A stretch of DNA of 26,226 bases from a virus. The position numbers and the translations under genes were made by a program. The stretch lies in the IMG/VR virus record IMGVR_UViG_3300020442_004443, positions 1 through 26,226 of that record; one strand, written 5' to 3'. The notes below the pieces were generated by a model that saw nothing but the letters and a program-made list of their open reading frames with translations, was not told where the DNA came from and made no database searches. Position 1 is the stretch's first letter. Every line of letters begins with the position of its first letter. This document shows positions 2,977-26,148 of the stretch, piece by piece.

Positions 2977-5900
2977 ATGATAGAAACTGGTTTCTCTCCC
3001 AGGGTACAAATCCAAGATATTATTGATAGTCAATTACCTGAATTTATTGTAAGTGATAATCCAAAATTTTCTGAGTTTTTAAAACAATATTATATTTCAC
3101 AAGAATATCAGGGAGGTCCAGTAGACCTATCTGATAACTTAGATCAATATTTGAATATTGACTCATTACTTCCTGAGGTAATAGTTGATAGAGCCACTTT
3201 ATCTTCAAATATTGATAGTTCTACTACAACAATTCAGGTATCAAGTACTAAAGGATATCCAGAATCTTACGGATTATTTAAAATTGATGATGAAATCATC
3301 ACATATACTAGTAAAACTTCAACCGAATTCCAAGGTTGTGTTCGTGGATTTTCTGGTGTAACAGGATATGATTATGGATATAATAAAGGTGAGTTAATAT
3401 TCAGTGAATCATCCTCAGCATCTCACATAGCTTCTACAAGCGTATCAAATCTTAGTTCGTTATTTTTACATCAATTCTACAAAAAGTTAAAATATGCCTT
3501 ATCTCCAGGGTTAGAGGGTTTTGAATTTGACTCAAACATTGATGTTCGCAACTTTATAAAGGAAGCAAAGACATTCTATCAATCAAAAGGTACTGAAGAA
3601 TCATTTAGAATTCTATTCGGTGTTTTATTTGGAGAAAGTCCAAAGGTAGTTGATCTTGAAAAATACTTAATTAAGCCATCTTCTGCTAATAATTTAAGAA
3701 GATTGGTAATATTAACTGAAGTATTAAGTGGAAACCCACTCAATCTTGAAGGTCAAACAATTTATAAGAACATTGACTCTAATACTTATGCTACTGTATC
3801 TGAAGTTGACATAATTCAAAGGGGTGAAAAAGTCTACTATAGAATGCTTCTTTTCTATGGGTATGATGATTCATTCCCACCTGTTTTCGGTGATTTTGTA
3901 ATTACTGGTAATACTAAAAATACAACATCAGTTTCTATTGGTGCATCTAATATAATTGTTGACACAACTATTGGATTCCCCAAAACAGGAACATTAACTG
4001 TGGGGAATAATAATATTTCTTATAGTGATAAAAGTATTAATGAATTTTTAGGTTGCTCTGGCATTACAGAAGAAGTTGGTGTAGCTTCGACAATCACATC
4101 AAATGAAACTTATTATGGTTGTGAAAATGGAGATTTGAGTAAAAAAGTTGTATTCAGAATTACTGGAATTATCTCTGGATACAAATCAAAAGTTAAAAAT
4201 GCACCGGTCTCTGTAGGTGAAGAAGTCACTGTTAAGAGTATTGGTGAAAAAATTAAAAATGAGCAAATCAATCCCACTAGAAAGCAAGTGTTTGCTAATA
4301 GTTGGGTTTACAATAGCTCTTCCAGAATTCAAATTGATACATTTGGTTCTGGAACTATCTCACAGATTACTCTTAAAAAATCTGTTGATAAGTGCCAATT
4401 AAAAGTTGGTGATCGTATAGACATTCTTTTTAGAGATTCTCAAACAGCAGTTGTAGAAAATCTTGAAGTTAATTCAATATTTGGAAACCAAGTAGGAACA
4501 TCTAATGCATTTTCACTGTCAGAATCTGCAAGATATGATATTAGGAAGAGAATTAATTTTGCTGACTTTGAAAATGTAGATACTGAATATGATAATATAT
4601 TTGCTGATATTCAAAATGTTTATAATGAAAATGATGAGTATATGTATGTTGCATCAAATTCAACTCCATCATATACAGTAACTAAGAAATTATTTTCATA
4701 TAATGTTTCCAGTCTGCATGAATTTAATGAATTTACTGGAAAATATGGAATTATTCAATTTGGCGCTACAGATAAAGTATCATTTTTAACTGGTACTGAG
4801 GTTGTATATACTCCATCTGGTGACCCAATTGAAGGATTAGTTCCTGGAACATATTTTGTAGAGACTTTGAGTAATAATACAATTAGATTATATGCATCAA
4901 GTGGAGCTATTAGATCTGGAGATTATTTAAGATTTGGTAGTTTGCCATCTGGTACACATAACTTTATTCCATTAAAACAGCAGGAGAAGGTAGTCTCTCC
5001 CCAGAAAGTATTTAAAAAATTCCCATTAAATCCAAACATTGGAGATGGAGAATCTACTTTAACTGCTCCAGGTGCAGTTGGAATGTTGATTAATGGTGTT
5101 GAGATATATGGATACAAGTCAAATGATAAAATTTATTATGGTCCATTAACTTCAGTAGATATACTAAACGGAGGAAGTGGATATGATGTTATTAACCCAC
5201 CAATAATTGAACCTTCATTTGGAACGGCAAAAATACAACCAATTATAACTGGAAGTGTAGTTGATGCTTTTGTAGATCCTCTTGATTTTGATGTTGATAA
5301 AGTTATTTCTATTGGATTTAGTGGTGGAAATGGAACTGGAGCATCTTTTGAACCAATTATTGAAAATAGAAGAAGAGAAATTTTATTTAATGCTAAGCAG
5401 TTAACTGAGGGTGGTGGAGTAGATGTTGATACTGATACTCTAACTTTTAGTAGTCCCCATAAATTATCTAATGGAGAAGCTATTCTTTATGATCCAGGTG
5501 TATATGCACCTCTTGGTATTGGAACATATCTTGGATCAAATTCGGATAGTGGAGATACTTTAATTAAAGACTCTGAGTATTATGTTCGTGTAATAAGTGA
5601 TGTTAGTATTTTACTATATGAAAAAATCACTGATTATAATGCTGGAATTAATACTGTTGGATTTACAACAATTGGTACAGCAGGAATTCAAAAATTCTTA
5701 ACTAAACCAAAGAGACAACTTGTTGGATTACAAGTTATAAATGGTGGAAGTAAATATGAAAATAGATTATTACGTGTGCAACCATCTGGAATTTCCACCA
5801 ATACTGATCGAATTACATCAGTTAATCATGGATTCTCTGATGGTGAACTAATTAACTATACTTATGAGACTAGTGGAATATCCGGTGTATCTACTGATAG

Positions 5901-8900
5901 TCAATACTATGTTCTTAAAGTTAATGATGATGTATTCAGTATTGCTGATGCGGGTATTGGTGCAACAATAAGTTCTAATTATGAAAGAAGAAAACCAGTA
6001 AAATTTGAAGATACTGGATCTGGTTATCAGATGTTTAAGTATCCAGATTTTAATTTAAATGTTAAATATACTGCTGCTGGTGTTGGAAGCACTGTATTTA
6101 CATCAGCAATAACTGCCACTCCTGTCATTCGTGGCGAAATTACTGGCACTTATGTTTATGATGGTGGATCTAATATTGGATCTGAAATCTTAAACTATGA
6201 AAATAATCCAAATATTATAGTTAAAAATGGAAAGAATGCTATTCTTTCACCCATAATCACTAATGGACAAATTACTGATGTATTTGTTCAGTCTAGTGGA
6301 TCTGAATATTTTTCGATACCAAATATAACAGCATCTGGAGATGGTAATGGTGCAAAGTTTAGACCTGTTATTGCAAATGGAAAACTTACTGATGTAGTTG
6401 TTGTAAGTCCTGGAATTGGATACTCCACTTCAAATACAGTAATATCTGTTGAGAGTGCAGGAAAAAATGCAGTTCTAAGGTCAAATATTAGATCTCTATC
6501 TGCTAATAACAATGTTATATTTAATGATGCAGATGATACTCTCGCAGCAGCAAATGAATTATTAATTTCAACTCCAAATAATAATTTACAATATGCTGTT
6601 TGTGCATATTCAGATACCATATTGAATCAATTTAATGATGATGGTACAGAGCACTCACCGATTATTGGTTGGGCTTATGATGGAAACCCAATTTATGGAT
6701 CTTTTGGATATACAGATCCTAGTGATATTAACTCAGATATTAAGAGATTGGTTTCTGGATATAGTGAAAGTATTTCTAATATTGAAAACAGACCAACATC
6801 CTTTGGATCAGGATTCTTTACTGAAGATTATGTATTTGATAATAGTGGAGATTTGGATGAATATAATGGTAGATTCTGTCTAACTCCAGAATTTCCAAAA
6901 GGAACTTACGCTTATTTTGCACCATCGGTTCTTGATGGTGATGGTAATGTTAAGGGTGTCTTCCCATATTTTGTAGGTAATAGATATAGATCCCCATTAT
7001 TGCAGGAAAATATTGAGTTAGATCAAGATTTTGATTTCAATCAATCAGATTTGATTAGAAATACATTCCCATACTCTGTAACTGAAGAATTTGCTGATAA
7101 TGATTTCATTGTAGAATCTAATGAGGAATTTACACAATCAACTAGAATTAATTCTATCAGCACTGGTAGTATTGAAGAATTCGATATTATTGATCCAGGA
7201 TCAAATTATAAGGTTGGTGATATTTTAAACTTTGATGAAGAAAAGAGTGGTGGAAGTGGTTTGTTTGCTTCTGTCCAAAAAATTAAAGGAAAACCAGTTA
7301 ATTCTTTGGATGTATCTACATTATCGTATGAGAATGCTATTTTTACTAAAAAGGATAATCAGACTATTGAAGTAAAAATATCACCTTCTCATGATTTGCA
7401 GAATTTAGATAATGTAATCATTTCTGGATTTTCTACAGTATCTACAGAATTATCTGGATTTTATCAAATAGGTGTTAGTTCAGTTACCTCAACATTAGTT
7501 GCTGAAATTCCATCAGCATCTGGTACAACTGTTGATATTTCACTATCAAGAATTCCAGATTCCATATCAATGGGAAGCAAGATTGGTATTGGTACTGAGA
7601 GACTTACCATACGTAATATTTTTGGTGATCTTAATGTTATCAGAGTTTCTAGGGAATATCCTGCGATTGCACACACCGCTACATCAACTGTAAGTTTTAT
7701 TCCTGATAAGTTTACTTTTAGTAAAACAAGTGATTTCTTCGAATCTTCATATAATGATTTGGTTTATTTTAACCCCACTAATGCATTAGGTGTAGGAACA
7801 ACACCTGGTGCCGGTATTTCCACAACTTATAATATTGGTGTTCAAACTAATCATACAGTATCGATTCCAACTCAGTCAATATATCTTCCAAATCATCCAT
7901 TTAGAACAAATCAAAAAGTAACATTTAAAAAAGAAGGACTTTCAGCTTTAGGTGTTGCAAATACTTCAGATAGTGCTATTTTCAATTTACCAAGCAGTGG
8001 AGAACAACAAGATGTATATATTATTAGGAAATCCCATGACCATATTGGTATTGTAACGCAAATAGGATTAACAACTACAACTGATGGTTTATTTTTCCGT
8101 AATTATGGAACAGATAGTCCATTATATAATTTTGAGTCTAATTATTTCCAATCTTTAGCAAACGTAAAGAAAGTAACTACAACTGTTTCAGTATCAACCG
8201 CACATGAAATGGTTAATGGTGATGTCATTGAGTTGGAAGTAAAACCAAACTTATCCGTAGGAATTGGAACATCTACTGCAGTAAGAATTAAGTATGATCA
8301 ATTCAATGAAAAAATCTTAGTTAATTCAACTGAATTTTTATCAACAGGTATCAATACCATTACAAATCAAATAAACATAGAAGATCATGGATTTAGTACT
8401 GGTGAGAAAGTAATTTATACTTCAGCAACTCCAGCTGTTGGATTGGAAACTGGATCTTTCTTTGTTTATAAAGTTGATGATGATAATTTACAACTTTGCG
8501 AAACGCTTCCAGACTCTTTATCAAATCCACCAATAGTTGTTGGAATTGCGACAGCTCCAGCAGCAACTCATGAACTTAGTCATATCAATCCACCATTAAA
8601 AGTTATTAGTAATAATAATATTGTATTTGATGTAAGTGACTCTTCTTTGATTGGATATAATTTCAAGATTTTCTATGATAATACATTTAAAGATGAGTTT
8701 GTCTCCACTGCAAGTACAAATGCTTTCTCCGTAACTGGTATTTCTACAGTAGGTTATGGTACAGCATCGGTAACAGTAATACACGATTCACTTATACCAT
8801 CTCCACTATACTATGGTTTAGAAAAATCTGGATTTATTAGCACTGCAGATGTTGATGTTCAAAATTATTCTCAAATAACTTATGAAGATAGTCTCTTCAA

Positions 8901-11900
8901 TGGAGAATATGCTATTTCTGGTGTCGGTGAAACCACTTTCAATATTTCACATTCTAGAATTCCAGAAACAACTTCATACTTAGCATCACAATGTGATACT
9001 ATAGAATATAAAACAAGATCCACCACATCTTCTGGTGGAATATCAGATATTTTAATTACATCTCCAGGATCTGGATATGAAAGTCTACCCAAATTATTAG
9101 GATCTAATTCAGTTTCTGGTGCAGGTGCTGCTATAGTTGCCAATTCAAAAGGTATTGGTGATGTCAATCAACTGGAAGTTTTGAATGAAGGTTTTGATTA
9201 TTCATCAGATTTGACTTTAAGACCACTTGCAACTATTCCAAAACAGTTAATTACTAAAAATTCTAATACTGTAAATGGCGTAGAAGTTTTAGATGGTGGA
9301 AAGAATTTTATTGGTGCTCCAGACTTGATTCTCATCAATAAAAATACTGGAGAGTTGGTTGATTCTGGATTCATTTCAGCAGAACTTTCTGGAAGCACAA
9401 TTATTTCTGCAAATGTTGAAAGTGAACCAAAGGGTGTTCTTGAAGGTGTTTTCTTAGATGTTAGATCTATTAACAATACTAATGGTGTTGCTGTTAACGT
9501 TTACACTGGATCAGTTAATAGTGGAATTGTCAGTGCAACATTGGCAACTCCTTTAAATGGATTCTCTGTAGAACCATTTAAAGTTGGAGATTTAGTATAT
9601 GTTGAGGGATTAACAAGATATGATTCTCAGGGTGATGGATTTAATTCTGAAGATCATGGATATGCTTTCTTCCCAGTAGTTGCATATTCAAATGCAGGTA
9701 CAAATCAACCTAGAGTCTTGCAGTATGATATATCCAGATATTCTACAGGTGCTGGAATTGGTCTTACTGGAAATGTTTATGGTACGATTATAAATTATGA
9801 AAATTATCCTAAATTTGAAGTTAATACTATCTTCTCAGAATTTCTCATCAATGAGAGTGTTGAAGTTTTACAGACTGGAGGATTTACTCTCACAGATTCT
9901 AGAATTGTAAGTTTTGAAGGAAGTGTTCTTAAGATATCTGGGGATTATGTTTTTAATTCCGATGATATCATTAGGGGGGTTCAGTCTGGTTCCATTGCTA
10001 CAGTCGATGAGGTTAATCTCTCTGAGGGTATATTTGATATACAATTTTCCATTTTGAAAGACTTTGGATGGCAAAATGATATTGGAAAATTAAATAACGA
10101 CACTCAAATCATAGAAGATAATGATTATTATCAAAATCTATCATATACAATAAAAACCAGAAAAACCTGGGATGATGTTATTAGTCCTGTTAATAATCTT
10201 GTCCACCCATCTGGACTAAAGAATTTTGTTGATACTGAAATTCTACAACCAGTGGGAGTTGTAACTACAACTTCTACTGAATCTTCAATCTCCATTCATG
10301 AGATTATGAATGAAAAGAGGGTAGATGCTATTAATAATTTTGATTTAGTTAGAGATTCAAATACTTTTGATCAATCTTCCAAATTTATTGAATTTGCCAA
10401 TGAAAAACTAACTGACTATGTTGAAGTTAGAACAAATAGAGTTCTTGAAATTGACGATATCAGTGATCAGTTCTCAAACAATAATCTTGATATTGAAAGA
10501 GAAACTAATTTAGAAGAAATTCCATCAAATAGACAGTTTAGTAAATTCTTAGTCCAAGCTACTAGTGCAGACTACTCCCAAGTAATGTTCAGCGAAGTAA
10601 TGGTCCTGAATAATAATCAAGGTCGTGCATATACATTATCAAAAGCAAGTCTGACAAATTTTGATGAAGATTTTGCTGAAATCACTTCCTTTACAAATAC
10701 TCAAGGAGAAGTATTCTTACAATTCAGCCCAACTGAAGTATTCAATACATCATATAATGTTAAGCATTTAAACACAGGATTTACCAATTTTGTTACTGGC
10801 GTATCATCTATAACAGTAGGATTTGTTGATATCATTGGTGTTACTACTACAGTTTCAGCAGGAACAACTACGACAGTATTAACAGCAGAAACTGGTAAAA
10901 AGGAAGCAATTCATTCTTATATCCATGTCTTAGGTGACACTAGTAGAGAAATGAATTATGTTGAATTGCTTGTAGATCATGATGGTGAAAATACAAACAT
11001 TGCAGAGTTTTACTTTGACACTGATGAGGGTGATATTAGTAATAGTCCCATCGGATCTTTTGATGCTTCAATAGAGGATGGGATTCTAAGCTTAAATTAT
11101 TCAAATACAACTGGAGAACCAGTTGTTTTAAGAACCAGAAACGTTGGTTTTGGAACAACTGTTACTGGAATTGGAACTTATAGATTCCAAAAAATAGGAC
11201 AACCAGAGGGTGATGAAAGATCCATAACATTTGATTCTCAATTTGTTAACACTTCTATTGCTTCCACAACTATAAAATCATTTGATATTAGTGAATTTAC
11301 ATCAATGAAGTCAACTGTAAGGGTTAGTGTTGGAGAAACAAGCGCTTTGCATCAAGTGATGGTTATCACTGATACTTTCAATGTCAATCAGGAAGCATAC
11401 ACACTTCAATATCCTTTCTTATCTATTGGTAGCACCAGTGGTATTGGCACCTTTGGTATGGAAATGTCTGGATTTAATGGTAACTTCAAATTCTACCCAG
11501 ATCCAGAATATGTTGGAGCAGAATCTATTCAAATATCTTCTTTTAATGAAAACTTCTATCATGATTATGATACTGCAAATCTTCCGGAAGATTTGCAGTA
11601 TGGAAATATTTTAGAGTCTATGACTCTTTCCAAGTTCTTATCTGCAAATGATGACGATTTATTTAAGACAACATTTGATTTAACATATGATGGAATTCCA
11701 ATTTTTGTAAAAACTTTTAATCCCACGGATTCTTCCGTAATTGATATTTCATTAGATACTTCTACTCTGAGTATTGATGATCATTTCTTCAGTACTGGAG
11801 AGGAATTAGTTTATACTCCAGGTTCAACCTTCACTTCAATTGAAGCATCTCCAATCCAAATAGTTGAAACTGAAAATTATCTTGGTGTAACCACAACATT

Positions 11901-14900
11901 GTTGCCAAGTACAGTATATGCAATTAAGATTAATAATGGAAAGCTTAAGTTAGCAACTACTAGAGAAAACGCTGACGCAGGCATAGCAGTTACTTTCAGT
12001 TCAATTGGTGATGGTAATGCTCATAATCTGGAAATGAAAGAGAAGGTAAGTAAGACTCTCATTACAGTTGATAATTTAATTCAGTCTCCCATTGCATATT
12101 CACTTATTAGATACCAAAACGTTGGTGGTGAGATTGGTGTTGGTGATAGTATGGTACATGTTAGTGGAATTTCATCAATTATTCTTGGAGATCTGTTAAA
12201 AGTTGACGATGAGTACCTTAAGGTTTTGAATGTTGGGTTGGGAACAACCGCTAGCGGACCTATCTCTTTTGGTGGAACTTTCCCACTTGTAAATGTTGAA
12301 AGAGGAGTTGCAGGAACAATAAGCACTTCTCACACACAATATAGTGATCTAGATCTCTATAGAGGTTCGTATACTATTACAGAAAACCAAATTCACTTTA
12401 CAGATGCTCCTGCAGGTATATTAGAAGATCAAATATTTGAGGACGTTGATAACTTACCAGAAGGTAGATCACAATTCTTCGGTAGAACTTTCTTAAGACT
12501 TAACTATGATAGTAATCAAATCTTTGATAATATCTCAGAGAAATTTACAGGTTTAGACCAAAGATATACATTGACATCTGCTGGTGTTAATACTGTTGGT
12601 CTCGGAACCAGTGGTGGTGCTGGAATTATTCTTATTAATGGAATATATCAAGCTCCAACTACTTCTAACAATCAAAATAATAACTTTAATATCGAAGAAG
12701 ATCTTTCAGTTGGAATTACTAGTGTAGTATTCTCCGGAATTACTTCTGCAAATGGTCAAATTATAATTTCACCTGATGATGTCAATCAAAATCAATTACC
12801 TAGAGGTGGTGTTATTGTATCATTGGGATCTACACCTGGATTGGGATATGCTCCATTATTTGGTGCAAGCGTTCTACCGCTAGTTGGTGCTGGTGGATCT
12901 ATTGTTGATGTTGTTGGTATACCAACTTATGGAACAGCACTTGGAATTAGTACAGTATCCTATGATAATGAAAGTGGATATATGGACATCACCACAGATG
13001 TCGATCATAATCTAAATTCAACTGATCTTTGGATAGAAGGTTTAAAATTCTCTTGTGATGAATATTATGATGGTCCAGTTGTTAATATTTCCAACTTTGT
13101 ATATGATAATTTGACTGGAATTGCAACAGTTACTACTTCTGGTGATAGTTATGCAACTCTTGGCAAATCAGTTCGTCTTTCTGACATCTTGATGGATTGT
13201 AATTCTTATGAAGTTGGTATTAGTACACTCAATATATCCGACGTAGATTATGATAATCTAACTGGTATTGTAACTGTCACAACTTCTAGTGCTCATGGAT
13301 TGGAGGTATCAAATCCAGTTAAACTTGATAATATTGAGTTTACCTGCAATTCTTATACAGGATTTGTTACATTCACCGCAAATAATCTAACTTATACTGA
13401 ATCTACTGGAATTGTCACAATTACAACTGACATTGAACATGGAATTTCTGTTGGGGAATGGGTACAGTTGTCAGACTTTGAACTTTCTTGTTCTGTTGAG
13501 CACGCTGGTGTTACTACAACAATTTTTCCACACCCAGCACAAGATGGTTATCCACAGTGTATTCCTAATGAACTAACTCTTGGAAATACCTACAACGTAG
13601 TTAGAGCACAAGCTGGTACGTCAGGAACTTCATTAGTTCTCAATGTTGGTGTATCTACAATTGCTCATACTTACGCCTCTGGTGGTGAAGTTATGACAGG
13701 TATTACATCAACCACCTTCCCATATGAGTTTGGAAAAACTCAAAATAATCTTTACGGATCATTTAATATTTGGGAAATAACAGAAATTGTCAGTACCACA
13801 GAGTTTGAGATTAATGTAGGCGTATCAAGCATATATCACACTTATGCTTCCGGAGGAACAGTTACTGTTGGTATTACTTCATCTGTATTCCCATATCCAG
13901 GTGGTAATGCAAATAATTCTTATGATGCATATGACGTATTTGAAGTTACTTCAATAGCATCGCCATCAGAGTTTACTGTTAATGTGGGAATTTCTACAAT
14001 TATCCACGAATATGTAAGTGGTGGTACAGTTAAGTCTGGTGTAACTACAACTATTTTCCCAGATGGAACGTTAGGAAATATATTCAGTATCTCAGAAATT
14101 ACTGGAGACGATACTCTTAGAGTTAACATTGGCATATCTTCCTTCTCTCACACTTATATTGGACTTGGAAGTGTACGTCCATATTATAGAGATTTAAATC
14201 TTGGATCTGGTTATAGAGAACCTGTTTCCATTGCAATTACTGATTCAAATCACAGTGGATCTGATGCAAACATTGTGGTAGAAGTAGATCGCAATGATCA
14301 TAAATTTGTATCTGCTACTACAAACAATGTTACTAGAAGCATTGGTGGAACTTTGAGTATTAGTTCGGCACATTATGAGACAACAACTGGTGTTCTCCAA
14401 TTATATTTTACTGGAGCACATGGTTTAACAACATCAGATACGATTGTCATTGCCGACAATTCAATGACATTTACTTGCTCGGAAGACTTCCACAGAACTC
14501 AACTTTCATATCCACGTTCTACAGATCCAGCTTCTGGAGCAAATCTTGAAGTTCTTTCAGTAATATCATCGACTGGAATTACTGTTAATGTTGGCGCTTC
14601 TCTATATGGAACTGGGGGAAGACTTAAATTTAGGATTGTGGATGGTGGAACAGGATATACAGTTCCAAGAATAGATATTGAACATCCAACATATTCAAAC
14701 TTAACTCTTGTTGGACAATCTAGAGTTGGTCTTGGTACTACAACTGACACTGGATTTGGAATGCTTGTAAATCTAGATGTTGGAAATTCTGATAGGAATA
14801 CTAATGGTGATAGATTCTTTGATGCTGCAAATCTAATAGAAGCAAATAAAGAGTTTATTGCAGATATTGCATATGGAAGAATGGTTGCAGCATTCCCAGG

Positions 14901-16941
14901 ATTTGTAACTCCAACAGGAAATCCTCAGGATTGTAAAGATGATATTGAAGATGTACTTGAATCCATGCTGTATAACCTCAAGTATGGTGGAAATGATTTA
15001 ACCGTTGACGCTGCTAATCTGTACGTTACAGGTGCTCATGTGAGTGGTGAAGAGGCAGAATCAGTCTATGCCTTTATAGAAGCAAAAGACATGGCAATTC
15101 AAGCCATGAGAAATGAAGTGATTACCGTAGGTGGTTATACAACAAAAACTCAGGTATTTGACTACACAATTACAATAGACTCCGAGACACCTTATTGTGC
15201 TAATGTTGCATCTGCAATTCATACTCTGGTTGGAATTGTTACTACAGCAGTGCAAGATGGTATTGTTCCCAAGAGAACAGTTGCTCCTGGAGCACAATAT
15301 GTTGTTGAAGATTTCGATGTCTCTAGAAAGGGATATGGATTTAAGAAGGGTGATGTAATGAGAGCAGTTGGTCTTGTAACAGCTCTTGGATTATTAGAAC
15401 CCATCAAACATTTTGAGATAAGTGTTGAGGATGTTTTCAGCGATGCATTCTCTGCTTGGCAATTTGGTCAAATTGATTATGTGGATCCAATTGATGAGTT
15501 CCAAGATGGATCTAATACAAGATTTGATTTGAGATATAATGGTGAACTTCTAAGTTTTGAAAAAAATAGATCTAATGCTGATTCCCAAGTAATCGATTTT
15601 GCACCTCTTTTAATTATATTCCTTAATGGTATTTTACAGCAACCAAAAGTCGCTTATGAATTTGAAGGTGGTACAACTGTTAAGTTCTCAAATCCACCAA
15701 AAACTAATGATAAAGTATCGATTTTCTTCTATAGAGGAAGTGAGGCAGATAGTTCATTAGTTCTTGTTAATCAAGTTGTTAAAATCGGTGATGATGTACA
15801 AATCTTTAGTGATAATAATAAATTGGGAATTACAACAACACAAGATACTAGAACCATAACTAGGTTTAGTGGATTTGATATTGCTCAAACTAATTTATAT
15901 TCTGGTGAAGGTATTGATGAAGATAATCAAAAACCAGTAACGTGGATAAAGCAGAAAAAAGATATGATTCTTGAAGGTGAAATTATATCTAAATCTAGAG
16001 ATTCGATCGAAACACAAGTTTATCCAACCGCAAGAATTATTGATAATGTCACTTCGGGTGATAGTGAAATATTTGTGGATAATGCACAATTCTTCAACTA
16101 TGAAGATCCTAGCACTGTTAATTTTGATGGAATTATCTTACCATCTACAGTTGATCCAGTCGCTGCTGGTGTGAGTGTTGTTGTTTCTTCTGCAGGAACT
16201 GTTCAATCTCTTCTCATACTTGAATCTGGTAGCGGATATGTTGGATCAGCTCTCACTGTAAGTATTTCTGCACCACCAAGAATTGGTGTTGGAGTTGGAA
16301 CTACTGCTAAGGCAACTGTAACTATTATTAATGGATCTATAACATCTTCAACTATCACCGAACCAGGATTTGGATATTCTCAAAATATATTACCTCAGGC
16401 GATTATTCCACAACCAAGTCCAATTCGCGAAGAAATTGCAGGAATAACTAATGTTGAAGGATTTGGTGGATCAATTGTTGGAATTGCAACCACAACTGGT
16501 ATTGGAACTGATCTAGCAATTTCCTTTACATTAGATGGAACTTTAAGTCCATTTGCTGGATTATCAACAAACTATAGAATATATGTTTATGATTCGCATG
16601 TTGGTAATGGTTTAACATCTATCCTTAATAATGATACCGAAGTTATTGGTACTGGAACAACATGTGTTGATAACATATACAATGTTAGTGCATTTGATGC
16701 CACTGTAGGAATCATTACATGCAATATTGATTCAAATTCTAATACGGTTGGAATAGCAACAACAGGATCTCTATCTGCAAGATTCTCTTGGGGAAGATTA
16801 TCTGGATTTAGTAGAGCAAGTGCTCCAATATCAATTGGAGTATCTGAATTTGTAGTTGATGCTGGACTGTCAACTTTCCCAGTAATTCAAAGAAGAGGTT
16901 TCGGTTTAAGAGATCTTGGAGCTCTTTCTAAAGATACTTAA
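2977..16941 (+). CDS. Giant modular baseplate/virion structural protein in the gene 7 position
   Basis: One uninterrupted frame of 4,654 residues, over half the window and about four and a half times T4 gp7 (1,032). Gene order 6-X-8 points to gp7, the peripheral wedge initiator that binds gp8 and gp10 in T4; direct sequence similarity to T4 gp7 is not something I can see. The N-terminal ~250 residues look like a dedicated assembly domain (SDNPKFSEFLKQYY; FYQSKGTEESFRILFG). The rest is a chain of beta-rich modules: RGxxG, HGFSxGExVxY, GGSGY, a YHYH-like domain (about 1195-1335), Cys-containing tandem repeats (about 3320-3850), an alpha-helical domain (about 3937-4095) and a phage-fibre NGILQQP module (about 4170-4255). 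It ends in IQRRGFGLRDLGALSKDT. A segment near residue 2390 (KTWDDVISPVNNLVHPSGLK) is not repetitive and may be a core contact. The gene has no own promoter motif and starts 1 base after gene 6. Confidence 0.85.
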   Translation: MIETGFSPRVQIQDIIDSQLPEFIVSDNPKFSEFLKQYYISQEYQGGPVDLSDNLDQYLNIDSLLPEVIVDRATLSSNIDSSTTTIQVSSTKGYPESYGLFKIDDEIITYTSKTSTEFQGCVRGFSGVTGYDYGYNKGELIFSESSSASHIASTSVSNLSSLFLHQFYKKLKYALSPGLEGFEFDSNIDVRNFIKEAKTFYQSKGTEESFRILFGVLFGESPKVVDLEKYLIKPSSANNLRRLVILTEVLSGNPLNLEGQTIYKNIDSNTYATVSEVDIIQRGEKVYYRMLLFYGYDDSFPPVFGDFVITGNTKNTTSVSIGASNIIVDTTIGFPKTGTLTVGNNNISYSDKSINEFLGCSGITEEVGVASTITSNETYYGCENGDLSKKVVFRITGIISGYKSKVKNAPVSVGEEVTVKSIGEKIKNEQINPTRKQVFANSWVYNSSSRIQIDTFGSGTISQITLKKSVDKCQLKVGDRIDILFRDSQTAVVENLEVNSIFGNQVGTSNAFSLSESARYDIRKRINFADFENVDTEYDNIFADIQNVYNENDEYMYVASNSTPSYTVTKKLFSYNVSSLHEFNEFTGKYGIIQFGATDKVSFLTGTEVVYTPSGDPIEGLVPGTYFVETLSNNTIRLYASSGAIRSGDYLRFGSLPSGTHNFIPLKQQEKVVSPQKVFKKFPLNPNIGDGESTLTAPGAVGMLINGVEIYGYKSNDKIYYGPLTSVDILNGGSGYDVINPPIIEPSFGTAKIQPIITGSVVDAFVDPLDFDVDKVISIGFSGGNGTGASFEPIIENRRREILFNAKQLTEGGGVDVDTDTLTFSSPHKLSNGEAILYDPGVYAPLGIGTYLGSNSDSGDTLIKDSEYYVRVISDVSILLYEKITDYNAGINTVGFTTIGTAGIQKFLTKPKRQLVGLQVINGGSKYENRLLRVQPSGISTNTDRITSVNHGFSDGELINYTYETSGISGVSTDSQYYVLKVNDDVFSIADAGIGATISSNYERRKPVKFEDTGSGYQMFKYPDFNLNVKYTAAGVGSTVFTSAITATPVIRGEITGTYVYDGGSNIGSEILNYENNPNIIVKNGKNAILSPIITNGQITDVFVQSSGSEYFSIPNITASGDGNGAKFRPVIANGKLTDVVVVSPGIGYSTSNTVISVESAGKNAVLRSNIRSLSANNNVIFNDADDTLAAANELLISTPNNNLQYAVCAYSDTILNQFNDDGTEHSPIIGWAYDGNPIYGSFGYTDPSDINSDIKRLVSGYSESISNIENRPTSFGSGFFTEDYVFDNSGDLDEYNGRFCLTPEFPKGTYAYFAPSVLDGDGNVKGVFPYFVGNRYRSPLLQENIELDQDFDFNQSDLIRNTFPYSVTEEFADNDFIVESNEEFTQSTRINSISTGSIEEFDIIDPGSNYKVGDILNFDEEKSGGSGLFASVQKIKGKPVNSLDVSTLSYENAIFTKKDNQTIEVKISPSHDLQNLDNVIISGFSTVSTELSGFYQIGVSSVTSTLVAEIPSASGTTVDISLSRIPDSISMGSKIGIGTERLTIRNIFGDLNVIRVSREYPAIAHTATSTVSFIPDKFTFSKTSDFFESSYNDLVYFNPTNALGVGTTPGAGISTTYNIGVQTNHTVSIPTQSIYLPNHPFRTNQKVTFKKEGLSALGVANTSDSAIFNLPSSGEQQDVYIIRKSHDHIGIVTQIGLTTTTDGLFFRNYGTDSPLYNFESNYFQSLANVKKVTTTVSVSTAHEMVNGDVIELEVKPNLSVGIGTSTAVRIKYDQFNEKILVNSTEFLSTGINTITNQINIEDHGFSTGEKVIYTSATPAVGLETGSFFVYKVDDDNLQLCETLPDSLSNPPIVVGIATAPAATHELSHINPPLKVISNNNIVFDVSDSSLIGYNFKIFYDNTFKDEFVSTASTNAFSVTGISTVGYGTASVTVIHDSLIPSPLYYGLEKSGFISTADVDVQNYSQITYEDSLFNGEYAISGVGETTFNISHSRIPETTSYLASQCDTIEYKTRSTTSSGGISDILITSPGSGYESLPKLLGSNSVSGAGAAIVANSKGIGDVNQLEVLNEGFDYSSDLTLRPLATIPKQLITKNSNTVNGVEVLDGGKNFIGAPDLILINKNTGELVDSGFISAELSGSTIISANVESEPKGVLEGVFLDVRSINNTNGVAVNVYTGSVNSGIVSATLATPLNGFSVEPFKVGDLVYVEGLTRYDSQGDGFNSEDHGYAFFPVVAYSNAGTNQPRVLQYDISRYSTGAGIGLTGNVYGTIINYENYPKFEVNTIFSEFLINESVEVLQTGGFTLTDSRIVSFEGSVLKISGDYVFNSDDIIRGVQSGSIATVDEVNLSEGIFDIQFSILKDFGWQNDIGKLNNDTQIIEDNDYYQNLSYTIKTRKTWDDVISPVNNLVHPSGLKNFVDTEILQPVGVVTTTSTESSISIHEIMNEKRVDAINNFDLVRDSNTFDQSSKFIEFANEKLTDYVEVRTNRVLEIDDISDQFSNNNLDIERETNLEEIPSNRQFSKFLVQATSADYSQVMFSEVMVLNNNQGRAYTLSKASLTNFDEDFAEITSFTNTQGEVFLQFSPTEVFNTSYNVKHLNTGFTNFVTGVSSITVGFVDIIGVTTTVSAGTTTTVLTAETGKKEAIHSYIHVLGDTSREMNYVELLVDHDGENTNIAEFYFDTDEGDISNSPIGSFDASIEDGILSLNYSNTTGEPVVLRTRNVGFGTTVTGIGTYRFQKIGQPEGDERSITFDSQFVNTSIASTTIKSFDISEFTSMKSTVRVSVGETSALHQVMVITDTFNVNQEAYTLQYPFLSIGSTSGIGTFGMEMSGFNGNFKFYPDPEYVGAESIQISSFNENFYHDYDTANLPEDLQYGNILESMTLSKFLSANDDDLFKTTFDLTYDGIPIFVKTFNPTDSSVIDISLDTSTLSIDDHFFSTGEELVYTPGSTFTSIEASPIQIVETENYLGVTTTLLPSTVYAIKINNGKLKLATTRENADAGIAVTFSSIGDGNAHNLEMKEKVSKTLITVDNLIQSPIAYSLIRYQNVGGEIGVGDSMVHVSGISSIILGDLLKVDDEYLKVLNVGLGTTASGPISFGGTFPLVNVERGVAGTISTSHTQYSDLDLYRGSYTITENQIHFTDAPAGILEDQIFEDVDNLPEGRSQFFGRTFLRLNYDSNQIFDNISEKFTGLDQRYTLTSAGVNTVGLGTSGGAGIILINGIYQAPTTSNNQNNNFNIEEDLSVGITSVVFSGITSANGQIIISPDDVNQNQLPRGGVIVSLGSTPGLGYAPLFGASVLPLVGAGGSIVDVVGIPTYGTALGISTVSYDNESGYMDITTDVDHNLNSTDLWIEGLKFSCDEYYDGPVVNISNFVYDNLTGIATVTTSGDSYATLGKSVRLSDILMDCNSYEVGISTLNISDVDYDNLTGIVTVTTSSAHGLEVSNPVKLDNIEFTCNSYTGFVTFTANNLTYTESTGIVTITTDIEHGISVGEWVQLSDFELSCSVEHAGVTTTIFPHPAQDGYPQCIPNELTLGNTYNVVRAQAGTSGTSLVLNVGVSTIAHTYASGGEVMTGITSTTFPYEFGKTQNNLYGSFNIWEITEIVSTTEFEINVGVSSIYHTYASGGTVTVGITSSVFPYPGGNANNSYDAYDVFEVTSIASPSEFTVNVGISTIIHEYVSGGTVKSGVTTTIFPDGTLGNIFSISEITGDDTLRVNIGISSFSHTYIGLGSVRPYYRDLNLGSGYREPVSIAITDSNHSGSDANIVVEVDRNDHKFVSATTNNVTRSIGGTLSISSAHYETTTGVLQLYFTGAHGLTTSDTIVIADNSMTFTCSEDFHRTQLSYPRSTDPASGANLEVLSVISSTGITVNVGASLYGTGGRLKFRIVDGGTGYTVPRIDIEHPTYSNLTLVGQSRVGLGTTTDTGFGMLVNLDVGNSDRNTNGDRFFDAANLIEANKEFIADIAYGRMVAAFPGFVTPTGNPQDCKDDIEDVLESMLYNLKYGGNDLTVDAANLYVTGAHVSGEEAESVYAFIEAKDMAIQAMRNEVITVGGYTTKTQVFDYTITIDSETPYCANVASAIHTLVGIVTTAVQDGIVPKRTVAPGAQYVVEDFDVSRKGYGFKKGDVMRAVGLVTALGLLEPIKHFEISVEDVFSDAFSAWQFGQIDYVDPIDEFQDGSNTRFDLRYNGELLSFEKNRSNADSQVIDFAPLLIIFLNGILQQPKVAYEFEGGTTVKFSNPPKTNDKVSIFFYRGSEADSSLVLVNQVVKIGDDVQIFSDNNKLGITTTQDTRTITRFSGFDIAQTNLYSGEGIDEDNQKPVTWIKQKKDMILEGEIISKSRDSIETQVYPTARIIDNVTSGDSEIFVDNAQFFNYEDPSTVNFDGIILPSTVDPVAAGVSVVVSSAGTVQSLLILESGSGYVGSALTVSISAPPRIGVGVGTTAKATVTIINGSITSSTITEPGFGYSQNILPQAIIPQPSPIREEIAGITNVEGFGGSIVGIATTTGIGTDLAISFTLDGTLSPFAGLSTNYRIYVYDSHVGNGLTSILNNDTEVIGTGTTCVDNIYNVSAFDATVGIITCNIDSNSNTVGIATTGSLSARFSWGRLSGFSRASAPISIGVSEFVVDAGLSTFPVIQRRGFGLRDLGALSKDT
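3187..3365 (+). repeat. RGxxG-type module, copy 1 (giant protein)
   Basis: Residues about 71-130 of the giant protein: SSTTTIQVSSTKGYPESYG, then IDDEIITYTS and FQGCVRGFSG. The pattern is a Thr-rich strand, a hydrophobic-Asp-Asp/Glu-Glu-Ile strand and a closing Gly-Cys-x-Arg-Gly turn. A degenerate copy follows at about 3915-4075 (GNNNISYSDKS, FLGCSGITEEV), a third lies at about 12090-12330, and one lies in the DUF4815 gene at about 24511-24730. Confidence 0.6.
4768..4977 (+). repeat. HGFSxGExVxY module, copy 1 (divergent)
   Basis: Residues about 598-667 of the giant protein: FLTGTEVVYTPSG, GLVPGTYFVETLSNNTIRLY and SGTHNFIPL. It follows the family order of opening loop, G(E/D/T)xVxY strand, (Y/F)(Y/F)V strand, a strand ending in L, and GxHxF/L close. 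The His-Gly of the opening loop is lost. Confidence 0.55.
5425..5700 (+). repeat. HGFSxGExVxY module, copy 2
   Basis: Residues about 817-908: SSPHKLSNGEAILYDPG, then SEYYVRVISDVSILLYEK and GTAGIQKFL. Same strand order as the other copies, with a longer insert before the YYV strand. Confidence 0.6.
5791..6039 (+). repeat. HGFSxGExVxY module, copy 3
   Basis: Residues about 939-1021: VNHGFSDGELINYTYE, then SQYYVLKVNDDVFSIADAG and GSGYQMFKYP. One of the two best-preserved copies. Confidence 0.65.
6562..6921 (+). other. YHYH-like domain in the giant protein
   Basis: Residues about 1195-1315. HSPIIGWAYDGNPIYGSFGY (1226-1245) and later LDEYNGRFCLTPEFPKGTYA match the conserved core of YHYH-domain proteins known from bacteria and phages. 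The eponymous Tyr-His-Tyr-His stretch expected just upstream is not visible; the corresponding stretch reads LQYAVCAYSDTILNQF. The domain's biochemical role is unknown to me. Confidence 0.7.
8353..8580 (+). repeat. HGFSxGExVxY module, copy 4
   Basis: Residues about 1793-1868: IEDHGFSTGEKVIYTS, then GSFFVYKVDDDNLQLCETL and AATHELSH. This is the copy closest to the pattern also known from bacterial adhesins and other phage proteins (HGL.TGd.V.Y...YYV...L...GtHtL). Confidence 0.7.
11746..12048 (+). repeat. HGFSxGExVxY module, copy 5
   Basis: Residues about 2924-3024: DDHFFSTGEELVYTPGS, then STVYAIKINNGKLKLATT, ENADAGIAVTF and GNAHNLEM. The Gly of the opening His-Gly is replaced by Phe. Confidence 0.65.
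12090..12330 (+). repeat. RGxxG-type module, copy 3 (giant protein)
   Basis: The translated stretch contains GDLLKVDDEYLKVLNVG followed by FPLVNVERGVAGT. It follows the same order as copy 1 (hydrophobic-Asp-Asp-Glu strand, insert, Arg-Gly-x-x-Gly turn), with a longer insert in the middle. Confidence 0.5.
12946..13510 (+). repeat. Tandem ~45-residue Cys-ended repeats (four units)
   Basis: Four successive units in the giant protein centre on VSYDNESGYMDITTD, FVYDNLTGIATVTTS, VDYDNLTGIVTVTTS and LTYTESTGIVTITTD. Each is followed about 20-25 residues later by a strand with a Cys: LKFSCDEYY, ILMDCNSYE, IEFTCNSYT and FELSCSVEH. Units 2 and 3 also look similar at the DNA level (13102 onward against 13248 onward), suggesting relatively recent duplication. 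A fifth, separated unit (YETTTGVLQLY, MTFTCSEDF) lies at about 14350-14530. Confidence 0.75.
13632..14180 (+). repeat. NVGVSTIxHTYASGG repeats (four units)
   Basis: Units read LNVGVSTIAHTYASGGEV, INVGVSSIYHTYASGGTV, VNVGISTIIHEYVSGGTV and VNIGISSFSHTYIGLGSV. The first three are followed by GITSTTFPY, GITSSVFPY and GVTTTIFPD. The same FP-type closing strand (GVTTTIFPHP) ends the preceding Cys repeat array, so the two repeat families interlock. A fifth partial (VNVGASLYGTGGRL) is near 14590. Confidence 0.75.
14785..15260 (+). other. Alpha-helical domain inside the giant beta protein
   Basis: Residues about 3937-4095 are rich in Ala, Glu, Asp, Asn and Met and read as helices: DRFFDAANLIEANKEFIADI, AYGRMVAAFPGF, CKDDIEDVLESMLYNLKYGG, DAANLYVTGAHVSGEEAESV and YAFIEAKDMAIQAMRNEV. 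The composition is unlike the Thr/Ser/Gly-rich beta modules on both sides. I recall similar helical segments in other large cyanophage structural proteins, sometimes in several copies. Confidence 0.7.
15484..15741 (+). other. Phage-fibre NGxLQxP module near the giant protein C-terminus
   Basis: Residues about 4170-4255: FQDGSNTRFDLRYNGE, then IFLNGILQQPKVAYEFEGGT and FSNPPKTNDKVSIFFYRG. This is the common tail-fibre module pattern (NGvlQ.P...Y...g..i.F...P..gd.v.i.y.G). A related NGIYQAP segment sits at residues 3220-3227 (about 12634-12657), followed by LPRGGVIVSLGST. Confidence 0.65.
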
Positions 16942-16950
16942 TTAACTCAT

Positions 16951-16958
16951 TATAAATA
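16951..16958 (+). promoter_or_regulatory. T4-type late promoter TATAAATA upstream of gene 8
   Basis: An exact TATAAATA in the 36-base gap after the giant gene stop (16942-16977). By the T4 spacing, transcription would start about 6 bases after the motif, leaving a leader of only about 14 bases before the gene 8 ATG. It would give gene 8 and the DUF4815 gene transcription independent of the 14-kb gene upstream. Confidence 0.75.
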
Positions 16959-25777: not shown

Positions 25778-25993
25778 ATGAAAATACCAGTAAAAGGGTA
25801 TCCAAATTTATATCGTGATGATAAAACAGGTGCTATCATAAATTGTGATAGCACTGGATATGATCAATATATGATTGCGAAAAATAAAAAAATTTCGCAA
25901 AGAAAAGAAATTGAAGATCTAAAGCACGATGTCAGTGAAATTAAATCTATTTTACAGGAGCTTCTAAATGAATCCCGACGAAATCACACTTGA
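25778..25993 (+). CDS. Small conserved phage protein with C-terminal coiled coil
   Basis: A 71-residue protein starting 1 base after the DUF4815 stop. The N-terminal half, MKIPVKGYPNLYRDDKTGAI followed by INCDSTGYDQYMIAK, looks like a small beta unit with a YRDDKTGAIIN core. The C-terminal part (about residues 40-66: QRKEIEDLKHDVSEIKSILQ, ELLNE) shows heptad-like spacing of Ile and Leu typical of a coiled coil. I recall similar small proteins in cyanomyovirus structural clusters but no known function. Immediate adjacency to the DUF4815 gene suggests a partner, chaperone or minor virion component; this is inference. Its 3' end overlaps the next gene by 26 bases and carries that gene's ribosome binding site. 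Confidence 0.85.
   Translation: MKIPVKGYPNLYRDDKTGAIINCDSTGYDQYMIAKNKKISQRKEIEDLKHDVSEIKSILQELLNESRRNHT
25956..25960 (+). promoter_or_regulatory. Ribosome binding site of the 57-residue gene
   Basis: AGGAG inside the end of the 71-residue gene, with 7 bases before the ATG at 25968. It is the strongest Shine-Dalgarno site in the window and supports the short overlapping gene as real. Confidence 0.75.
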
Positions 25994-26141
25994 ATCTATG
26001 TCCAAGTCGTTCGAGTATGAACGGCAAGCAAGATTAATTGATGAATGTAGAGACCTCGATGAATTGAAAAATATTTGCAAGTCTTATGCAAAATTGTATT
26101 TCAAACAACAAGAAGTTTTACAGGCGTTACCTGCTCTATAA
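25968..26141 (+). CDS. Small acidic/helical protein, 57 residues, overlapping the previous gene
   Basis: Translation from ATG 25968 gives MNPDEITLESMSKSFEYERQ, ARLIDECRDLDELKNICKSY, AKLYFKQQEVLQALPAL, with a TAA at 26139-26141. It is predicted to be almost entirely helical, with two Cys (residues 27 and 37). Support for a real gene: an ideally placed AGGAG, translational overlap of 26 bases with the upstream gene, and sensible composition throughout. The layout (a short ITLE segment, a SFExxRQ helix and a LYxxQ helix) loosely recalls NblA phycobilisome degradation adaptors, which some cyanophages carry. That similarity is weak and unverified. Alternatively it is a regulator or a small assembly protein. 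I recall comparable SFEYE...KLYxxQQE proteins in cyanophages, annotated as hypothetical. Confidence 0.75.
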   Translation: MNPDEITLESMSKSFEYERQARLIDECRDLDELKNICKSYAKLYFKQQEVLQALPAL

Positions 26142-26148
26142 ATAGAGC
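26133..26148 (+). terminator. Hairpin overlapping the gene end, weak terminator candidate
   Basis: GCTCTA (26133-26138) pairs perfectly with TAGAGC (26143-26148) around a TAAA loop, starting in the last codons of the 57-residue gene. It is followed by ACATTTTATAG, a poor U tract. A 6-pair stem with half A/T is weak, so it may not terminate. It also contains a late promoter motif. Confidence 0.35.
26137..26144 (+). promoter_or_regulatory. Late promoter motif TATAAATA inside the hairpin
   Basis: An exact T4-type late consensus spanning the stop codon of the 57-residue gene, 47 bases before the next start. Confidence 0.55.

Follow-up and report, generated by a model that had tools for sequence, protein, structure and literature searches.

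A short gene that overlaps a virion gene near the end of a phage genome fragment raises the question of whether its product serves the virion or is directed at the host and, in the latter case, whether it is related to NblA, as the preliminary description had suggested. The window, by which we mean the whole stretch of DNA analyzed, is a virus record of 26,226 bases that encodes the T4-type baseplate proteins gp25, gp6, and gp8 and is therefore part of a T4-like phage. One open frame of 4654 codons (2977–16941) lies between gp6 and gp8; it far exceeds the usual length of a baseplate gene. The features of the locus are collected in Table 1.

Table 1. Coordinates of the 57-codon gene, its signals, and its upstream neighbor in the window
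Feature	Position	Strand	Basis or remark
71-codon gene, PHROG 473 (virion structural protein; T4-GC 112 in S-SM2)	25778–25993	+	
AGGAG ribosome site, 7-base spacer to the ATG, within the coding sequence of the 71-codon gene	25956–25960	+	
57-codon gene (plus stop codon), ATG start	25968–26141	+	ORF; PHROG 27081; predicted NblA-like small helical protein
26-base overlap of the 71- and 57-codon genes, likely translational coupling	25968–25993	+	coordinates
TATAAATA, T4-type late-promoter-like element at the gene end, before the next gene (start 26192)	26137–26144	+	
TATAAATA, second copy in the window, before gp8	16951–16958	+	

The 71-codon gene was assigned to PHROG 473 (E = 2.9e-22), and the product of the 57-codon gene matched PHROG 27081, a family of unknown function, over residues 1–54 of 57 (E = 1.2e-23). 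Both the overlap between the two genes and the spacing of the AGGAG site were confirmed as first described. The additional claim that this is the best ribosome site in the window came close to being right, as its duplex of −6.6 kcal/mol is equalled by that of the 4654-codon gene (GAGGT at 6 bases, −7.3 kcal/mol). Among the eight gene starts compared, the last of which was placed one base late, gp6 has GAGG at 14 bases, and in the remaining five no match reaches 4 bases.

Being short and overlapping its neighbor, the frame might be taken for a chance open frame beside a virion gene. When 54 codons were compared with IMG/VR relatives, however, 17 codons differed from locus L001 and 10 from locus L002, all synonymously, and 15 differed from locus L003, of which 14 were synonymous and 1 was non-synonymous; 16 of the 17 base changes relative to L001 fall at third positions. 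The purely synonymous differences from L001 and L002 already refute the chance-frame reading, which also has against it that 148 of the 174 bases lie outside the overlap and that relatives occur in other genome contexts, and its likelihood is now negligible. The pattern of synonymous divergence, together with relatives in 25 phage records, places the gene beyond chance; judged from these codon comparisons, it is under purifying selection and is a real protein-coding gene.

The 25 phage records were found by tblastn with the window protein (E ≤ 1); merging records that belong to the same phage leaves 19 distinct phages. All 19 have Synechococcus hosts (S-TIM5 and S-TIM54 are listed under Parasynechococcus). 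Two other family members used as tblastn queries returned 27 records each (E ≤ 10), the only additions being pf16 and S-CRM01, which profile search and hhalign subsequently confirmed as a divergent relative. The pf16 match (E = 3) was dropped, as the family profile has no match in that genome; a PHROG 27081 match in the Synechococcus elongatus control (E ≤ 0.1) disappeared at 0.001 and was not used. A scan of IMG/VR with a single sequence gave 44 loci, and in a profile scan of viral contigs at least 585 stretches encode a relative, among the 600 matches listed. Some members go unannotated in phage genomes: the one at L166:2501–2668 (Sf-CH8, PV340853.1) has no gene call in its record, and the Sf-CH5 record likewise has no feature at its family member. 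Two metagenome-assembled genomes titled Euryarchaeota (L128 and L129) include contigs bearing the cyanophage gene, which is probably binning contamination by phage contigs.

The surroundings of the gene vary. It was held by 216 of the 219 loci fetched, which are the best-scoring ones rather than a random sample and include some contigs fetched twice. PHROG 473 lies directly upstream in 157 of the 216, the two genes overlapping by 4 to 47 bases; in 51 the fetched stretch contains no PHROG 473, and 8 begin too near a contig end to judge. Distinct gene DNAs number 123 beside PHROG 473 and 45 in other contexts. A tree of 152 distinct proteins, built from 59 columns, requires 10 changes of the context label (9–11 in bootstrap trees), with at least 4 forced by well-supported branches, which indicates that the gene or its neighbor moved on more than one occasion. 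Among isolates, S-SM2 and S-SRM01 have the gene after PHROG 473 in the same order and with the same annotation as the window, and Bellamy and SynMITS9220M01 do so by coordinates. The two genes are far apart in S-SCSM1, S-SCSM2R, S-SKS1, DSL-LC03, Sf-CH8, Sf-FS3, S-B05, and S-CRM01. S-TIM5 carries the family gene amid ferredoxin, plastocyanin, transaldolase, and tRNA genes, and PHROG 473 has no match in its genome at E ≤ 0.001. Conversely, PHROG 473 was matched in 462 phage records (E ≤ 10, some surely by chance) versus 25 for the 57-codon family, and it is present in P-SSM2 and AG-345-L05, which lack the 57-codon gene. Patchy spread and several contexts point to an accessory gene rather than a core assembly gene, and on these genome comparisons the PHROG 27081 gene is an accessory, mobile cyanophage gene. 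What is established is a conserved coding gene of patchy spread, found in several contexts, whose known carriers among isolates all have Synechococcus hosts.

The position of TATAAATA, which we take to be the T4 late-promoter element, bears on when the gene is expressed. The two copies in Table 1 are the only ones in the window, and both lie on the plus strand in short intergenic gaps, as expected of T4-type late promoters; because shuffled sequence yields 4.5 copies by chance, it is the placement alone that is informative. Of 118 distinct relatives beside PHROG 473, 56 have the element between −10 and +90 relative to the stop, against an expectation of about 1 in 100 from its frequency in these loci; of the 45 genes from other contexts, none has it there. 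In the 100 bases upstream of the gene it occurs in 0 of 121 loci beside PHROG 473 and in 0 of 45 from other contexts. This placement suggests that, beside PHROG 473, the gene would close a late transcription unit and that its translation would be coupled to that of the virion gene.

With regard to the host, the psbA/psbD family was matched in 8 of the 9 gene-bearing contigs of at least 119 kb (8 of 23 overall), and its presence on long contigs points to cyanobacterial hosts. In two records the psbA/psbD match falls into two pieces, at 134295–135343 with two in-frame TAG codons (record of L236, G036) and at 163609–164465 (record of L023, G016), as though an intron, insertion, or frameshift had broken the gene. 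PHROG 473 was found in 22 records named for Prochlorococcus, among which one or two carriers of the 57-codon gene would be expected at a rate of 25 in ~430; these phages are too few for significance, so the absence of the gene from Prochlorococcus phages is no proof. S-SCSM1 infects both Synechococcus and Prochlorococcus, according to passages of its authors' report, and an NblA-like ORF is present in the Prochlorococcus phage P-SSP7, so host range alone cannot prove function.

Relatives of the window protein have already been linked to NblA in print. In the passages of a 2022 study (PMC9602691) that bear on the family, S-SCSM1 ORF237 is named a distant NblA homologue by HHpred, seven further cyanomyovirus relatives are said also to match NblA by HHpred, and the prediction of nblA in S-TIM5 is credited to Nadel et al. 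2019. Against the NblA family model itself (PF04485), the check proposed in the preliminary description came out negative for the window protein, which has no match at E ≤ 10. No PF04485 match was found in 15 related records and 23 long contigs, the window protein has no NblA match in Pfam or NCBIfam, and the best of 133 relatives reaches 17.6 bits against the curated cut-off of 25 bits. Two relatives come closer: L230 matches PF04485 at E = 0.0053, its only Pfam match, and L173 does so at E = 0.059. The best match of L230 among 177,635 PDB sequences is the NblA structure 1ojh (E = 0.0092, against 0.33 for the unrelated chain that follows), and it scores 17.1 bits against a local NblA profile, compared with 9.2 for the best unrelated ORF of 1,347 scanned. 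L230 was picked as the best of 153 for NblA, however, so its E values and bit scores are optimistic, and it matches two unrelated NCBIfam models at E = 0.006, which places values of this size near noise.

Against the local profile, 20 shuffled sets reach 10.8 bits and reversed family copies 13.2 bits, and the mean score of the reversed copies (1.7) is higher than that of the real ones (0.85). An unselected Pfam scan of the 133 relatives gave 3 NblA matches versus 18 for DUF7212 and 14 for nSTAND_NTPase4, and the NCBIfam scan of the same relatives gave 1 for NblA. By hhalign, 152 family rows aligned to 21 NblA rows with a score of 12.7 (P = 0.078), a value equalled or exceeded by 17 of 100 column-permuted decoys and surpassed by 3 of 11 unrelated phage families (14.3 to 17.5), PHROG 473 among them. 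The score against a phage-only NblA alignment was 15.0; other settings and row sets gave P values of 0.13 to 0.41, and the first run gave no alignment. When the window protein and alignment A1 were each searched against PDB sequences, there were no matches at all at E ≤ 10, and the 133-row family profile gave four matches there, none to NblA, the best being AcrIIA15 (E = 0.15 over 20 residues). Anabaena NblA searched against phages gave no cyanophage match and one Vibrio phage at E = 4. The NblA residues L-x-x-E-Q-x-F of helix 1 and M-S-x-E-Q-A before helix 2 are absent from the window protein except for the Phe, the corresponding sites reading LESMSKSF and ECRDLDEL; L230 has NEEQAKDF at the first. 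The weak NblA matches of L230 and L173, obtained in separate alignments, all fall in one register, which also fits the predicted helices. This agreement favors descent from NblA; we consider it somewhat probable that the PHROG 27081 family descends distantly from NblA.

Predicted structure agrees with a small helical protein, as first described. AlphaFold models the window protein as a two-helix hairpin with a mean pLDDT of 94.5 and helices at 11–26 and 30–53, that is, a hairpin in the range of about 50–65 residues with the shorter helix first, and a phage NblA modeled as a control has a near-identical layout (helices at 9–24 and 27–55). The conserved Phe occupies the same place in helix 1 of the window family and NblA. 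A Foldseek search of the PDB with the window model found no NblA, which means nothing, as the model of the true phage NblA likewise found none; the best BFVD match of the window model is D6PIK3, an unnamed protein (E = 0.024). The NblA idea is thus supported in part: in its favor are the published HHpred calls on relatives, the predicted helix layout, the L230 matches, the Synechococcus hosts of all 19 isolates, and conservation beyond virion gene clusters; against it are the missing PF04485 match of the window protein, the absence of most NblA motif residues, an hhalign score within the range of decoys, and the lack of NblA among the PDB matches of the family profile.

Of the known systems, the closest are S-SCSM1 ORF237 (QFG06501.1) and S-TIM5 YP_007006038.1, to which the window protein is 50% identical across 95% of its length. 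Both genomes match PHROG 27081 (E = 1.6e-25 and 1.3e-32, respectively) and so hold the same family, but their copies are not beside PHROG 473, whereas the window copy overlaps it. S-CRM01 gp108 (YP_004508541.1), from a freshwater Synechococcus phage, is a divergent relative (profile E = 1.5e-5, hhalign probability 96%) that, unlike the window protein, has 86 residues, a C-terminal extension, and no M[ND]PxxI start. NblA itself (PF04485; 1ojh, 3cs5, 2q8v, and 2qdo) has length, two-helix layout, and the helix 1 Phe in common with the window protein but lacks the conserved N-terminal M[ND]PxxIxL and the KLYxKQQE stretch of the window family. The NblA-like ORFs of cyanopodoviruses (PHROG 27006), at L157:13741–14049 in P-SSP7 and L155:12021–12305 in S-CBP1, are likewise small proteins of phages and match an NblA profile weakly; they retain the EQxF residues, and the profile of the window family does not find them. 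Strains of Prochlorococcus, the genus that P-SSP7 infects, are said to lack nblA and phycobilisomes.

Our preferred reading is that the 57-codon gene product is a late-expressed, host-directed, NblA-like adaptor, a predicted function to which we assign a probability of roughly 0.45. Its helical hairpin would bind a host phycobiliprotein by one surface and a Clp-type chaperone by another, the host protease would then degrade phycobilisomes late in infection, and this breakdown would free amino acids. What we infer is that the protein descends distantly from NblA, is co-expressed late with the virion operon, has these binding partners, and causes bleaching. Alternatively, the protein may be directed at the host as a small helical adaptor or inhibitor of a different target, for instance a protease, RNA polymerase, or photosystem factor of the host, and resemble NblA only superficially. 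An accessory, mobile distribution would suit such a protein, the hhalign similarity to NblA is not above that of decoys, and the KLYxKQQE stretch, where conservation is highest, does not correspond to an NblA motif; the single register shared by the weak NblA matches, which fits the predicted helices, and the HHpred assignments of relatives in the published passages tell against it, and we hold it to be possible but doubtful.

That the gene encodes a minor virion or assembly protein working with the PHROG 473 protein would explain why it so often overlaps PHROG 473 directly and why, by the placement of TATAAATA, it comes last in a late unit. The much wider occurrence of PHROG 473, its absence from S-TIM5, and the distance between the two genes in eight other isolates speak against such a partnership. 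In the passages describing the S-SCSM1 virion proteome, 45 proteins are reported and three non-structural ones are named, with ORF237 not among them, though small proteins are easily missed. The preliminary description had set against an NblA-like role the combination of no NblA profile match, conservation within virion gene clusters only, and detection in purified particles; the PF04485 match is indeed lacking in the window protein, but conservation extends beyond virion clusters, with nine isolates examined carrying the gene away from PHROG 473. A virion function is accordingly judged improbable.

The family is thus already known as a catalogued phage family, and publications predict relatives to be NblA; literature searches, none of which was aimed solely at the family, turned up no test of its activity. 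The gene merits attention because the family is large, seemingly without an activity test, and, among the fetched relatives, mostly built into the late virion operon. The NblA-like adaptor reading can be carried further, to a proposal that we regard as rather unlikely: PHROG 27081 may be a large, separate NblA-type branch, much of it captured into the late virion operon through the overlap with PHROG 473, which would time phycobilisome breakdown to virion protein synthesis and feed it. If the family is active, the dismantling of phycobilisomes would be a common late step for T4-like Synechococcus phages in both sea and fresh water, and the breakdown of the antenna would be linked to the supply of virion protein.
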